In this document: positions 6,834-52,311 of the stretch, in pieces
Layout: every line of letters starts with the position of its first letter
Position numbering within the stretch: position 1 is the stretch's first letter
From: an uncultured Gammaproteobacteria bacterium
GTDB taxonomy: Bacteria; Pseudomonadota; Gammaproteobacteria; SZUA-229
Assembly: GCA_913065105.1 (NCBI GenBank)
Contig: CAJXZZ010000005.1
Location: 1 to 58,570 of the forward strand
DNA: 58,570 nt
Reading direction: 5' to 3'
Notes under the pieces: model-generated
Databases searched by the model: none
Told to the model about the DNA's origin: nothing
The model's input: only the letters and a program-made list of their open reading frames with translations
Position numbers and translations under genes: made by a program

Positions 6834-8651
6834 GTGAGTATTAAAATCCGTAACATCGCTATCATCGCCCATGTCGACCACGGCAAAACTACACTGGTTG
6901 ATAAACTGCTTGAGCAATCTGGCACACTGGATGAGCGTAAAGCACCGGGCGAGCGGATCATGGATTCGAACGATCAGGAAAAAGAGCGTGGTATTACTAT
7001 CACCTCGAAAAATACCGCGATTGACTGGAACGGTTACCACATCAATATCGTCGATACACCGGGACATGCAGATTTTGGTGGTGAGGTTGAGCGTGTGCTT
7101 TCTATGGTCGATTCAGTTTTACTGCTGGTTGATGCAGTTGACGGTCCGATGCCACAGACCCGTTTTGTTACCCAGAAAGCCTTCGCTATGGGTTTTAGGC
7201 CAATCGTTGTCATTAATAAAATTGACCGTGATGGTGCTAATCCGCATCGTGCGCTGGATTTAACTTTTGATCTATTTGATAAGCTGGGTGCGACCGACGA
7301 GCAGCTGGATTTTCCGGTGATCTACGCTTCAGCGGTTAATGGTTATGCTGGTCTTGACGCGGATATTACTGAAGGTGATATGACGCCTTTATTCGAGGCA
7401 ATTCTTGAGCATGTGCATGCGCCAGACGTTGATGTCGATGGCCCTTTCCAGTTGCAGATTTCAACCCTCGATTACAATAGTTATGTCGGCATCATCGGTA
7501 TCGGCCGCATCCGCCGCGGTAAGGTCACAACCAATATGGCAGTGAAAATTATCGGTGATGACGGTAATGTGCGTGGTGGCCGCATCGGCCAGGTACTGGG
7601 TTTCCATGGTCTGGAGCGCGTAGAGGCTGCCGAAGCACAGGCAGGTGATATCGTTGCGATTACCGGTATTGATCCGCTATCCATCTCCGATACCATCTGT
7701 GACCCGAATGAGGTTGAAGCTTTACCTCCGATGACGGTTGACGAACCAACGATCAGCATGATGTTTCAGGCAAACTCGTCGCCATTCTCCGGTCAGGAAG
7801 GTAAATATGTCACCAGTCGAAATATCTGGGATCGCCTGCAGCAGGAACTAAAACATAATGTCGCGCTTCGCGTAGAGCAGGTAGAAGGCGACAAGTACAA
7901 AGTATCCGGTCGTGGTGAGCTGCATCTTTCGGTATTGATCGAGACCATGCGTCGTGAAAATTTTGAGCTGGCTGTGGGGCGTCCGGAAGTAATCATCCGT
8001 GAAGAAAACGGCGTTAAGCAGGAGCCTTATGAAGAACTCACCGCCGATGTTGAAGTTGAGCATCAAGGTGCTGTGATGGAAGCGCTGGGTAAACGTAAGG
8101 CGGATCTGAAAGATATGGTGCAGGATGGTAAAGGCCGGGTCAGGCTTGATTTTATTATTCCAGCGCGTGGTCTGATCGGATTTAGAACCGAGTATCTCTC
8201 GATGACACGTGGTACCGGTTTGCTGTATAGCGTGTTTGATCATTACGGCCCAACCGTGACAGATAATATCGGCCAGCGTCCAAATGGCGTGCTGATCTCT
8301 AATGCCAGAGGCAAAGCGGTCGCTTATTCACTTTATCCATTGCAGGAGCGTGGCAAACTGCTGGTCGGTAACGCTGATGAAGTTTACGAAGGCCAGATAG
8401 TGGGTATCCACGCACGTGATAATGACCTGGTGGTTAACCCGATTAAACCTAAGCCGTTAACCAACGTACGTGCATCAGGTACCGATGAAGCATTGACCTT
8501 GTCACCGCATATTAAATTTACCTTAGAACAGGCGCTGGAATTTATCGATGACGATGAGCTGGTCGAAGTTACGCCGGACAATATCCGTATCCGTAAGAAA
8601 CTTTTGAAAGAGAATGAGCGTAAGAGCACGGGTCGTGGTAAGAAGAAGTAA
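6834..8651 (+). CDS. typA: Ribosome-associated translational GTPase TypA/BipA
   Basis: The protein has 605 residues from GTG 6834. An in-frame TTG at 6822 would add four residues, but the GTG gives the usual [18 protein letters not shown] start and a length matching the family (607 in E. coli). The G1 motif AHVDHGKT is at 12-19. [12 protein letters not shown] and the switch segment RGITI follow, then EF-G-like domains III and V and the BipA-specific C-terminal domain with a basic tail. TypA binds 70S ribosomes and is needed for 50S assembly and growth under cold or stress. It is monocistronic, ending at the terminator at 8705-8736. Confidence 0.97.
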
Positions 8652-47593: not shown

Positions 47594-49129
47594 ATGGTCG
47601 ATCGAAGCGTCCCCCGAAGACCCACCCTCCTGATTATCCTGGATGGTTTTGGTGTCAACCCAAGTCGAATTAATAATGCAGTGCAAGAAGCGGATACACC
47701 GCGACTGGATGAATATTTTTCTAGAAACTCCCATACTACGTTAGATGCCTGCGGTACTTCTGTCGGTTTGCCTGACGGCCAGATGGGTAATTCTGAAGTT
47801 GGTCATATGACACTGGGCAGTGGCTCGGTGATAAGGCAGGACCTCGTTCGTATCAATGATGAAATCGAAAGCGGTGATTTTTTCAGTAATGCAGCATTAG
47901 TTGCTGCAGTAGAAGATGCCGCTACCAATGAGCGTCCATTGCATCTTGTTGGTCTTACCTCCAATGGTGGTGTTCATAGCCACATCAACCACCTCAAAGC
48001 TTTAATCAAGTTGTGTGCTGACCATAAGGTGAGACCGGTGGTGCACATGACGACGGATGGTCGTGATACTGCGCAAATGTCGGCATTGACGTTTCTCGCT
48101 GAAATCGAAGGTCTGCTGGAAGATGCTAATGGCAGTATCGCTACAGTGAGTGGCCGTTATTACTCGATGGATAGAGATAATCGTTGGGATCGAACTGCAC
48201 TTGCCTGGAATGCGATGGTGAAAGGTGAAGGCCATCACGCAGAAAATGCACGCTACGCAATTGAAGCAGCTTATGCGCACGATGAAACCGATGAGTTTAT
48301 AAAACCAACGGTGTTAGATAATGCAGAGTTAATTACGTCTGGTGATAACGTTATTTTCTTCAATTTCCGCAATGATCGCTCGCGTCAGCTCACTATGGTG
48401 TTAAGTCAGGATGATTTTGCTGAGTTTGATACCGGTGATTTCGAAGGTGCATTGGTGACCTGTTTAACTGAATATGACCCTGAGTTTTTATTGCCCATTG
48501 GGTATGCACCTGAGCGTCCACAGGCAACAGTGGCTTCTGTTGTAAGTCGCGCCGGTTATAAGCAGATGCATTGTGCAGAAACTGAAAAATATGCACACGT
48601 TACCTATTTCTTTAATGGCGGTAAAAAACAACCATTCGCGGGTGAAGATCACGTCATGGTTAACTCACCAGATGTCGCTACTTACGATCTACAACCAGAA
48701 ATGAGTGCGGCAGGTGTTGCTGATAAAGTTATCGAGGGCCTGCAGTCCGGTGGTTATGGATTTATCATGGTCAATTTTGCCAATGGCGATATGGTTGGTC
48801 ACACGGCGGTTCGAGAGGCGGTAATTAAAGCTGTTGAAGCTTTAGATAGAGAAGTTGGACGTGTGCTGGATGCAGCAGCAGAATGTGGTTTTTCTGTGAT
48901 ATTAACCGCCGATCATGGTAATTGTGACGAGATGGTGGATCCTGTTACTCAGGAGCCGCACACGCAACACACGCTGTACCCGGTACCCTGTGTCGTTATT
49001 GATGAAGCCAACTGGCATCTGCGTCCAGGCTGCGATTTAAGTGCCGTTGCACCCACAATATTGCAGTTAATGGGCTTACAGCAACCGCCTTCAATGACAG
49101 GTAAATCGTTATTGTTGTGTGAGTATTAA
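47594..49129 (+). CDS. gpmI: 2,3-bisphosphoglycerate-independent phosphoglycerate mutase
   Basis: This 511-residue enzyme interconverts 3- and 2-phosphoglycerate in glycolysis and gluconeogenesis. It has the alkaline-phosphatase-like fold with two Mn ions. Visible motifs are LIILDGFG, the catalytic Ser in GQMGNSEVGHM, GRDT near residue 153, DRDNRWDR, and the metal site TADHGNCD. It has an in-frame ATG at 47594 and its own terminator at 49144-49189, and is not part of the tat operon. Confidence 0.98.
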   Translation: MVDRSVPRRPTLLIILDGFGVNPSRINNAVQEADTPRLDEYFSRNSHTTLDACGTSVGLPDGQMGNSEVGHMTLGSGSVIRQDLVRINDEIESGDFFSNAALVAAVEDAATNERPLHLVGLTSNGGVHSHINHLKALIKLCADHKVRPVVHMTTDGRDTAQMSALTFLAEIEGLLEDANGSIATVSGRYYSMDRDNRWDRTALAWNAMVKGEGHHAENARYAIEAAYAHDETDEFIKPTVLDNAELITSGDNVIFFNFRNDRSRQLTMVLSQDDFAEFDTGDFEGALVTCLTEYDPEFLLPIGYAPERPQATVASVVSRAGYKQMHCAETEKYAHVTYFFNGGKKQPFAGEDHVMVNSPDVATYDLQPEMSAAGVADKVIEGLQSGGYGFIMVNFANGDMVGHTAVREAVIKAVEALDREVGRVLDAAAECGFSVILTADHGNCDEMVDPVTQEPHTQHTLYPVPCVVIDEANWHLRPGCDLSAVAPTILQLMGLQQPPSMTGKSLLLCEY

Positions 49130-49143
49130 TTACTTATAAAATT

Positions 49144-49189
49144 AAAGCCCAGCCAGGTTAAATATGAAATAACCTGGCTGGGCTTTTTT
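49144..49189 (+). terminator. Intrinsic terminator of gpmI
   Basis: A long perfect stem, AAAGCCCAGCCAGGTTA (49144-49160) with TAACCTGGCTGGGCTTT (49170-49186), is followed by more T residues. It is a strong terminator. Confidence 0.95.
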
Positions 49190-49495
49190 ATTGCCTACAC
49201 TATCACCAATATTTTTTGATGATTACTTATTAATCAATAAAATACGATCTCAATCTCTATAAATACCTATAATCACGCCTTATATGCCTGATATATATCG
49301 ATATATACGTTTATATATCAAAAACTTGTGAAGTGTGTCTAGTTTTCGACACTCATGTCGATTAATTTTCCATTGGTACTCTATACTGCAATAAACCTTT
49401 GCGGTTTCTAAATGTTACAAAATGCTTGTGGTCCATTCTGGCCTGTATTTTTTCCAATTTTTGGATCGTTTTACAATAAGACTAATGGAGTTCTT
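49190..49495. promoter_or_regulatory. Palindrome-rich upstream region of the membrane protein / VWA lipoprotein pair
   Basis: This 306-bp AT-rich region is empty of genes. It holds TGATATATA (49289-49297) paired with TATATATCA (49312-49320), a 16-bp perfect palindrome centred at 49299/49300 (49292-49307), and TCGACA (49346-49351) paired with TGTCGA (49356-49361). TATACT at 49382-49387 could be a -10 element. The arrangement looks like operators ahead of a promoter, by inference. Confidence 0.4.
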
Positions 49496-50944
49496 ATGTC
49501 GTTATCTGAAATTTATTTGATTGTGCCGAACCCTGTTCTTTCCGGCATGATCTGGTTCTTTGTTGTTTCCGCTGTGTTGTATCTCGCGCGGCTACCGGCA
49601 AAAAAATATATTCTGGCTTTCAGTGAGGTAATTCATAATGCCCTGCGTCTTGCAGCGAGTTCAGTGAATTCGGCTGATTCCCGTTTGCAGGCGCGTAACC
49701 GTGAAGTGCTGCTTGAAGCGGGTCGCGAAGCCTCTGAACGTATGATTGAACGTGAGTTTGAGCGAGTTGAGAACACGGTGATGAATGACCTGTCGCAATA
49801 CCCAGCCTTGCAGCGTAAGTTGAGCGAACGTATAACCAGCATCGATGAAGATTATAAGCAGAGTACGGAAGTGCCACCAGATCCACCAGACTGGTGCAAG
49901 GTGGTTGAATCGGTTGCAAAAATCGACAGCAACGGTGATGCCATGGTGGCACATATTCTGAAAGACATACATAAGTCGATGATCAAAGCACAGGACAAAG
50001 CGATTAAAGAACACAGGCGTGCCTGTATGGAACGCCACGGCGTTTTAAAACGCATGATGCCGCACTGGCGCTCAGTGAAACGGGTACTCGGAGAAGTTGA
50101 CAATAATATATCCAGCATCCTCGAGCGTGCAACGAAAATCAGTCGTTACATGCAAGATTATGAAGAAATCATTAAGGGCAGCGACCGTGCCACGCGCGTG
50201 TTGTCATCCTCGGCAATGAGCCAGTTTTTTGTATCGGCATTTGTGCTCGCCATTGCTGTTGGTGGCGCGGTTGTGAACTTCACGCTGATCGCACGGCCGA
50301 TGGCTGAAATGGTTGGCGGCCAGAATTTTATCGGCAATTTTAAAGTGTCAGAAATTTCAGCTGTGGTGATTATCCTGGTAGAAATTTCTATGGGACTATT
50401 CCTGATGGAATCGTTGCGCATTACGCGCCTGTTCCCAGTGATAGGGGCGCTCAATGATAAACTGCGCGTACGCATGATCTGGATTACTTTTGGTTTCTTG
50501 TTTGCGCTCGCCAGCGTTGAAGCTGGCCTTGCCTTTATGCGCGAGATTTTGATGGAAGACGAACTGGCCACCAGTGCAATGTTGCGCGGTGATGGCATGA
50601 GTACGATAGCAACCGCTGACTTTGCCTGGATAACCACGGCCGCACAGATGGGTATGGGATTTATCCTGCCGTTTGCGTTAGTGTTTGTAGCTATTCCGTT
50701 GGAGACTTTTGTATCTTCAACTCGTACCGTTGTTGGCGTTGTAACATCTGCACTATTGCGAGCATTGGCTTTTGTACTACGTCTGTTAGGTAATATCTCG
50801 CGTTATAGTGGCAAGATTGTGGTCAATCTCTATGACCTGATTATCTTTGGGCCACTATGGCTGGAGAGTGTCATTACCCAAAAGATATCTACGGGTAAAG
50901 CGAGTAAAAGCGTAGTTAATTCAACTTACCAGGAGGCTACATGA
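49496..50944 (+). CDS. Polytopic membrane protein with long coiled-coil/charged domain, unrecognised family
   Basis: From ATG 49496, with GGAG five bases upstream, this is 482 residues. An upstream start at 49412 would add 28 residues and lacks a ribosome binding site. It has one helix at about 13-32 and then about 200 residues of charged helical sequence. Three helices follow at about 243-264, 284-304 and 326-347, and two more near 382-402 and 413-432. I recognise no catalytic motif or named family. The gene overlaps the VWA lipoprotein gene as ATGA, so the two are co-translated. A membrane scaffold or transporter-like partner is only inferred. Confidence 0.75.
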   Translation: MSLSEIYLIVPNPVLSGMIWFFVVSAVLYLARLPAKKYILAFSEVIHNALRLAASSVNSADSRLQARNREVLLEAGREASERMIEREFERVENTVMNDLSQYPALQRKLSERITSIDEDYKQSTEVPPDPPDWCKVVESVAKIDSNGDAMVAHILKDIHKSMIKAQDKAIKEHRRACMERHGVLKRMMPHWRSVKRVLGEVDNNISSILERATKISRYMQDYEEIIKGSDRATRVLSSSAMSQFFVSAFVLAIAVGGAVVNFTLIARPMAEMVGGQNFIGNFKVSEISAVVIILVEISMGLFLMESLRITRLFPVIGALNDKLRVRMIWITFGFLFALASVEAGLAFMREILMEDELATSAMLRGDGMSTIATADFAWITTAAQMGMGFILPFALVFVAIPLETFVSSTRTVVGVVTSALLRALAFVLRLLGNISRYSGKIVVNLYDLIIFGPLWLESVITQKISTGKASKSVVNSTYQEAT

Positions 50945-51609
50945 AGCTCTCAATTTTGACTAAAATTATAACAATGTGTCTGTTTGTGTTTCAGGGCATT
51001 TTGCTTTCGGGTTGTTCTGACTCTGGCCCAACTAACAGTGGCGTCTATCTGCTATTAGACACCTCAGGCACTTATACAAAAGAACTGAGCAATGCGCAAA
51101 AGCTGGTAAATGTTATGTTGGTGAAACTGGAACCTAACGATTCGTTTGCTGTAGCGCGCATCGATACCGGCAGTTTCAGTGAAAAGGATATTATTACCAA
51201 AGTAACGTTTAATGATCGTCCGAGTGAAGCAAATAGACAGAAGCGTCATTTTCGTGATGACATGGATCAGTTCGTTAAGGATGTAAAACCATCCAGGTAT
51301 ACTGATATTACTGGTGGCGTATTACAGGCAGCTGAGTATCTGAACGAAAAAGCCACGGGTAAAAAAACGATCCTTATTTATTCAGATCTGAAAGAAGAGT
51401 TGCCGGAAGGTTACATACGTGATATTCCATTCCAGCTTGAAGGGTTTGATATTATCGCGCTTAACGTAACCAAATTGCGCAGTGATAACGTTGATCCACG
51501 AGAATATATGGACAGACTTGAAGAATGGCAGCGCCGTGTTGAAGAAGGCGGCGGCAGTTGGCGTGTAATTAATGATATGGACAAGCTTGAAAGCGTTCTT
51601 CGAGGTTGA
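50941..51609 (+). CDS. VWA domain lipoprotein
   Basis: This 222-residue protein has a lipoprotein signal ending LLSGC (Cys 25). A von Willebrand A domain starts with YLLLDTSGT, where D40, S42 and T44 form the MIDAS first loop. A Thr near 119-122 and D147 (IYSDLKEE) supply the other ligands. VWA domains bind proteins through a Mg ion. The start ATG overlaps the upstream stop, so it is translated with the membrane protein. Outer-membrane or inner-membrane attachment is uncertain; the residue after Cys is Ser, which does not signal inner-membrane retention. Confidence 0.85.
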   Translation: MKLSILTKIITMCLFVFQGILLSGCSDSGPTNSGVYLLLDTSGTYTKELSNAQKLVNVMLVKLEPNDSFAVARIDTGSFSEKDIITKVTFNDRPSEANRQKRHFRDDMDQFVKDVKPSRYTDITGGVLQAAEYLNEKATGKKTILIYSDLKEELPEGYIRDIPFQLEGFDIIALNVTKLRSDNVDPREYMDRLEEWQRRVEEGGGSWRVINDMDKLESVLRG

Positions 51610-51616
51610 AATAAAA

Positions 51617-51632
51617 AACTCTGATCAGAGTT
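51617..51632. other. 16-bp perfect palindrome after the VWA lipoprotein gene
   Basis: AACTCTGATCAGAGTT is its own reverse complement. No T-run follows. It could be a second hairpin in the 3' UTR or a protein site. Confidence 0.4.
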
Positions 51633-51642
51633 GAGATGATTG

Positions 51643-51673
51643 GTAAAAAGCCGTTTTTAAAACGGCTTTTTAC
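51643..51673. terminator. Bidirectional intrinsic terminator between the VWA gene and msrA
   Basis: GTAAAAAGCCGTTTT is followed by its exact reverse complement. There are A and T runs on both sides, so it can stop transcription from both convergent genes. Confidence 0.9.
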
Positions 51674-51690
51674 TTATTGTTGCATACTCA

Positions 51691-52311
51691 TTAATCTATG
51701 CTCACACCGGTGCCGCCTAAACCACAATAACCATTCGGGTTTTTTGCCAGATACTGCTGATGGTAGTCCTCAGCATAATAAAATTCAGGGGCTTCGATGA
51801 TTTCAGTGGTGATAGGTCCGTATCCTGCTTTGGCCAGTTTCTGCTGAAAATAATCACGCGAAACTTCGGCTGCGTTGCGCTGTTCCTCATTGAAAGTATA
51901 GATACCTGAGCGGTATTGTGTGCCTTGATCATTGCCCTGGCGCATGCCCTGTGTCGGGTTATGTGCTTCCCAGAATGCTTTAAGTAATAACTCGATGCTG
52001 ATCTTTTCAGGATCAAACACAACCAGAACCACCTCATTGTGTCCGGTCATACCGCTACAGACTTCCTGATAACTTGGGTTAGGCGTTAATCCAGCGGCGT
52101 AGCCTACGGCGGTGGTGTAGACGCCGTCGATTGGCCAGAATTTTTTCTCAGCGCCCCAGAAGCAACCCATACCGAATATGATCTGTTGCAGGTGGCCGCA
52201 AAATGGGGATTGTAAAACATTGCCGTTAACAAAATGTTTATCTGGTACTGGCATGCGTGCATCACGACCGGGCAGTGCCTGTTCTTTTGTTGGTAAATTC
52301 TGTAGGCCCAT
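51691..52311 (-). CDS. msrA: Peptide methionine sulfoxide reductase A
   Basis: This 206-residue enzyme reduces methionine-S-sulfoxide in proteins. The catalytic Cys is in [13 protein letters not shown] (about residue 50). YRSGIYTF and GHNEVV, and the C-terminal resolving Cys in [12 protein letters not shown], are present. About 45 residues precede the catalytic core, as in the longer MsrA type of E. coli. It is monocistronic. Confidence 0.97.

Follow-up and report, generated by a model that had tools for sequence, protein, structure and literature searches.

What is the task of two overlapping genes that lie between strong terminators in the genome of an uncultured gammaproteobacterium, one encoding a membrane protein that resembles no named family and the other a small lipoprotein with a VWA domain? 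The genes are part of a stretch of 58,570 nucleotides (contig CAJXZZ010000005.1), which in its full length is referred to here as the window. A preliminary description, made from the DNA sequence alone, had singled them out as an unrecognised two-gene module in which a MIDAS lipoprotein accompanies a membrane protein. This description holds: the pair is a real, old, conserved and unnamed module, and literature searches returned no paper on it.

The gene pair and its boundaries

Gene A (49496..50944, + strand) encodes an inner-membrane protein of 482 amino acids, characterized here through 155 distinct homologues, an analysis of topology by hydropathy and charge, and an AlphaFold2 model. Gene B (50941..51609, + strand) encodes a lipoprotein of 222 amino acids with a VWA domain, for which 147 homologues were aligned. 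The coordinates and the four-base ATGA overlap of the two genes are as previously reported, and both genes have good ribosome sites. We place the start of A at 49496 and not at the in-frame ATG further upstream at 49412, because the homologues begin there and the GGAG ahead of it is conserved. The terminators that had been noted on both sides are recovered by folding. The upstream boundary is an intrinsic terminator behind gpmI (49144..49186, + strand) with a 17-bp stem and a T run (-30.6 kcal/mol, z -7.6), and the downstream boundary is an intrinsic terminator behind B (51642..51674, + strand) with a stem of 15 pairs (-19.2 kcal/mol, z -6.9), which is possibly bidirectional and shared with msrA. 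A DNA alignment of nine relatives revealed a partly conserved region upstream of A (49346..49425, + strand), which contains the inverted repeat TCGACA-N4-TGTCGA at 49346-49361 (hairpin z -2.5), a TATACT box that resembles a -10 element and marks a putative promoter, and an AACC...GGTT leader. These blocks are common to the nine relatives despite the differing genomic sites of their modules. Full-length conservation of the proteins across 155 distinct copies rules out that A and B are chance open reading frames.

How constant is the association of the two genes? A was found in 24 of 58 related genomes and B in the same 24. A scan at one genome per species returned at least 506 encoding loci, and in the best 80 of these, mostly from Gammaproteobacteria with some from Alphaproteobacteria, B lies directly behind A in every case (80/80). 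When B is counted as present beside a copy of A at 30 bits or more, 147 of the 155 distinct copies have it. A check of the neighbourhood in other genomes, proposed with the first description, thus finds A and B adjacent across families and classes. In a class-wide gammaproteobacterial sample A is present in 41 of 276 genomes, and a broader profile detected it in 53 of 369; outside the class it is largely confined to one family.

Gene A encodes an unfamiliar membrane protein

Hydropathy and charge, averaged over the copies of A that have B, predict five transmembrane (TM) helices followed by a C-terminal amphipathic region, with the N-terminus outside and the C-terminus inside. This orientation is deduced from the position of the hydrophobic cores (about 12-27, 244-261, 285-302, 331-344 and 386-400) and from the placement of lysine and arginine, which cluster behind TM1, in the stretch from TM3 to TM4 and behind TM5. 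TM1 (~13-30) would lead into a cytosolic coiled coil of ~200 amino acids (~32-228), after which the predicted order is TM2 (~244-266), periplasmic loop 1, which contains E271, TM3 (~285-307), TM4 (~327-350), periplasmic loop 2 (~351-377) and TM5 (~378-405), with the amphipathic region behind it. The helical domain of about 200 residues between the first two helices had been recognised correctly, and the six helices initially assigned to the protein become five plus the amphipathic region. The AlphaFold2 model places long helices at 32-123 and 149-227 in the cytosolic part; as the model is of moderate quality (pLDDT 78, pTM 0.51), a novel fold is not claimed. Five residues, N261, E296, E342, Q384 and E403, are near invariant within the TM helices, which is unusual for helices that face lipid. 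Conserved acidic and amide residues at such positions would fit an ion-handling core better than the scaffold role that A had been given at first.

Family searches did not name the protein. The window A has no Pfam, NCBIfam or PADLOC match above cut-off, PHROGs offered no convincing family, and 62 homologues of A gave only scattered weak or coiled-coil matches at chance level (7tm_6, DUF7341 and others). PDB sequence profiles yielded nothing below E 0.5 for either A or B. Searches with the fold of A (Foldseek/VIA, against the PDB and viral models) returned no match at E<=0.001, and what they did list were long-helix proteins, namely SMC arms, TTYH, MscK and tape measure proteins, with Z about 10, a value that is usual for coiled coils. 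None of the structure matches backs a channel identity for A.

Membership of the MotA/TolQ/ExbB group was considered and rejected. An hhalign comparison of A with five MotA/TolQ/ExbB proteins from the same genome gave E 0.13-0.56, hardly above the reversed profile, against 1e-7 for positive controls; PF01618 does not appear in the family listing of the 62 homologues; and A has five hydrophobic cores where three (or four) TM helices would be expected. The same genome has, on another contig (C17, ~27.5-30.8 kb), a divergent MotA/TolQ-like protein of 313 amino acids followed by a MotB/OmpA-like TM protein of 294 amino acids. This couple adjoins a 2-oxoglutarate-oxygenase-like open reading frame and may be a separate motor-type system.

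Gene B encodes a lipid-anchored VWA domain with a conserved metal site

B carries a signal peptide with the lipobox LSGC25, whose cysteine is present in 147/147 aligned copies. The AlphaFold2 model (pLDDT 90, pTM 0.83) assigns the VWA fold with confidence and depicts a bare domain of 200 amino acids on a short linker, with no additional binding domain. Against VWA domains of the PDB the model gave 61 Foldseek matches at E<=0.001 (best E 9.6e-6) and VIA Z of 14-15.6 over ~160 residues. Pfam VWA_2 is matched in 45 of 57 homologues of B at E<=1, with weak scores (best 6.4e-7); the window B itself has no match above cut-off in Pfam, VWA models included, or in NCBIfam or PADLOC, and since so many of its homologues match VWA_2 this miss is a matter of sensitivity only. 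The MIDAS consists of D40-S42-T44, T121 and D149, conserved in 147/147, 146/147, 140/147, 141/146 and 145/145 copies, respectively. The first three residues were identified correctly in the preliminary description; its last aspartate, D147, has to be replaced by D149, and T121 also belongs to the site. In the B proteins of four loci (L050, L175, L179 and L180) Asp or Glu takes the place of Thr as third residue and Ser that of Thr121, which in the alignment is a paired change inside the metal site.

The likeness of B to VWA proteins (PF00092, VWA_2 PF13519) lies in the fold and in the metal-site residues. B differs from other VWA/MIDAS proteins in being a minimal, lipid-anchored VWA domain that is associated one-to-one with a membrane gene belonging to none of the known families. 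Among bacterial VWA proteins, those of MoxR AAA+ systems (BatA/BatB, NorD/ViaA) invite comparison, as BatB and NorD are among the fold matches of B; however, no MoxR AAA+ family was noticed among the recurrent neighbours of the pair, and the partner here is a polytopic membrane protein. B is therefore of a known domain kind, a name for the domain and not for its function, while A is unfamiliar and matches no well-characterised family.

Where is B located? Ser or Gly predominates directly after the lipidated cysteine (+2), where Asp is rare, and the +3 residue is strongly conserved as acidic. Under the E. coli rule, which is well established but may not hold in these bacteria, Ser or Gly at +2 sorts a lipoprotein to the outer membrane. 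That the acidic +3 residue acts as a local retention signal is speculation.

Loss of B is accompanied by erosion of the periplasmic side of A

Five divergent homologues of A (L169, L170, L172, L174 and L241) have no adjoining B, and none was found elsewhere in their genomes. Of the TM columns conserved among copies of A with B, these homologues keep 27% in the periplasmic half of the bundle vs 63% in the cytoplasmic half (p 5e-5), the halves being assigned from the inferred topology, whereas equally divergent A proteins with B, picked as controls after the scores had been seen, keep 76% and 68%, respectively. A per-sequence comparison of copies without and with B gave p 0.003. The copies without B are mostly of one clade and represent few independent losses, so that both p-values overstate independence. 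Lost in 5/5 of them are E271, M272, V273, E342 and Q384, of which E271, E342 and Q384 are kept in about 98-99% of the copies with B; R32, G300 and R324 are kept in 5/5. This selective erosion of the periplasmic TM half where B has been lost puts the action of B, as far as sequence comparison can tell, at the periplasmic face of A.

Further copies qualify this picture. One A whose partner B has a degenerate MIDAS (L167) displays the same periplasmic-side tilt, and two other copies with a degenerate-MIDAS partner do not. Covariation between A and B, for example of E356 in A with K62 in B, leans weakly towards the periplasmic loops of A, with p 0.04-0.2 depending on settings and a sensitivity to pseudocounts. 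E271, in periplasmic loop 1, is the obvious candidate for a MIDAS ligand. Its coupling to the metal site appears suggestive and not strict: in two copies of A whose B is intact this position is alanine, and the ligand may therefore differ or be shared.

Two loci are worth recording in their own right. In L244 a main-family A that keeps E271, a point against the docking model proposed below, is followed directly by a glycerophosphodiester-phosphodiesterase-like gene in place of B, apparently a recent loss of B. In L170 a secD-secF-like pair with the same strand orientation immediately precedes the homologue without B (6853-8259).

A model for the A-B unit

We propose that A and B form one envelope unit in which the lipoprotein B, through its metal-MIDAS, docks on the membrane core of A and controls it, a reading that we prefer tentatively and hold to fall slightly short of an even chance. 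The cytosolic coiled coil of ~200 amino acids would serve oligomerisation or the binding of a cytosolic partner. B would be exported and lipid-anchored, its VWA MIDAS predicted to hold a divalent metal, and would dock via this metal on the periplasmic face of A, probably on an acidic loop residue such as E271. Docked B would then assemble, gate or couple the membrane core of A, which may be ion-conducting or force-coupled. The physical docking, the bound metal, the ligand residue and the conduction of ions or transmission of force by A are all steps that we infer. The outer-membrane sorting signal of B is a serious difficulty for direct docking: a B sorted to the outer membrane would have too short a linker for direct contact with A, and in that case a model of B as force transducer or tether would be better.

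What precedents exist for such an arrangement? In alpha2delta-CaV and CLCA-TMEM16 a membrane-anchored or secreted VWA protein engages, through its MIDAS, an extracytoplasmic loop of its partner; the VWA domain of CLCA4 potentiates TMEM16B, and the MIDAS is required (PMC11231702). The docking of B on A is a prediction, and the analogy is one of working principle: neither CaV nor TMEM16 was detected as a relative of A, and a conductance of A is putative. The most far-reaching form of this idea, that A represents a new proteobacterial family, made up of ion channels of the inner membrane or of motors driven by ions, under obligate periplasmic control by a VWA lipoprotein, a separately evolved counterpart of alpha2delta and its channel, we regard as unlikely, at about one chance in four. 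The partnership of VWA proteins with inner-membrane complexes is an idea already published for TolQ-like motors: a survey from 2025 suggested that vWA proteins act as force transducers for these motors and reported one family paired with TolQ without TolR (PMC12204202). Those pairs share with A-B a VWA gene beside an inner-membrane protein that has a cytosolic helical part, with no TolR/ExbD, and by this analogy A-B may work similarly. They differ in that A is not a MotA/TolQ/ExbB protein by profile and has five TM helices, and in that their VWA protein is TM-tethered with a trans-pore Asp, whereas B is a lipoprotein.

These comparisons bear on the strongest of the alternatives, a membrane motor in which A would be the unit driven by protons or sodium and B would form the periplasmic or outer-membrane arm. 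The gross plan of A, an N-out TM1, cytosolic helices and then TM helices with acidic residues, is that of TolQ-like motors; the tight pairing of vWA with TolQ in the survey is a precedent; and the +2 residues of B, which favour outer-membrane sorting, would suit such an arm. Nevertheless, the profile values of A are far from those of the positive controls, its TM helices number five and not three, and B has a lipobox and no trans-pore helix with a conserved Asp. We consider this alternative improbable, with about one chance in five.

A weaker alternative holds that B is a surface or periplasmic adhesin that uses its MIDAS to bind peptidoglycan or an external ligand, with A as a signalling or scaffold partner. 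VWA MIDAS proteins do act as adhesins, as in CglB (cited in PMC12204202) and Bd0875 (PMC11003981), and the lipoprotein signal of B is outer-membrane-like. Against adhesion or matrix anchoring stand the bareness of the domain, which has a short linker and no extra binding domain, and the fact that, where B is lost, A itself erodes at the periplasmic face. This leaves the adhesin reading somewhat less probable again than the motor.

The pair matters beyond this locus. It occurs in ~15% of the gammaproteobacterial genomes sampled and also in other proteobacteria, with an A that has no family in the libraries searched, and its carriers include cultured bacteria such as Thiohalophilus thiocyanatoxydans and a Microbulbifer. 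It provides a compact and testable example of one-to-one coupling between a membrane protein and a MIDAS lipoprotein. It could reveal whether bacteria control inner-membrane machines by metal-dependent docking of VWA domains.

Flagellar and chemotaxis context

Could the pair be a component of the polar motor or of a chemosensory array? In ~19 of the best 80 of at least 506 loci fliA lies directly upstream of A, preceded by cheA-cheW-parA-MCP-cheR-cheD-cheB or by fliEFGHI genes, and a DUF1249 gene and a Sel1-SPOR gene follow the pair. The P-ring gene flgI is commoner in carriers of A (31/41) than in non-carriers (119/235; p 0.004). However, the fliA linkage is the synteny of one clade, and the window genome, which is 99.7% complete, keeps the pair intact although neither FlgI nor CheB was found in it. 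FlgI is also missing from 10 of the 41 carriers in the class sample and from all five carriers found in the window genus, four of which are only 75-84% complete. The pair thus needs no flagellum, and a flagellar part is rejected as its general function; as an accessory role, we give it a low probability, around one chance in ten. In L072 (9072-13458) and similar loci the block fliA-A-B-DUF1249-Sel1/SPOR is kept in two distinct flagellar/chemotaxis cluster contexts.

Mobility of the module

The module is patchy, and it often moves or is lost. In the window the pair is flanked by gpmI and msrA (49127-51700), and in three genomes of the same genus (G017, G016 and G005; loci L254, L257 and L258) gpmI and msrA adjoin directly, the pair being absent from this site. 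A-B lies at another site in G016 and G005, and G017 is without it. That this patchy, relocating cassette, with its varied sites and empty gpmI-msrA sites in sister genomes, is an anti-phage or conflict system with A as membrane effector is highly improbable, as A and B have no PADLOC match and no convincing PHROG family, the pair was not found in phage, plasmid and viral collections, no recurrent defence-type neighbour was noticed in the clustered flanks of the best 80 of at least 506 loci, and the long-term conservation of the pair is strong.

The identity of A exceeds that of GpmI in G018 (88 vs 81%) and in G047 (64 vs 42%, with a GpmI that is possibly paralogous), and falls below it in G021 (48 vs 68%). 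This inconsistency from genome to genome suggests transfer or deep differential loss.
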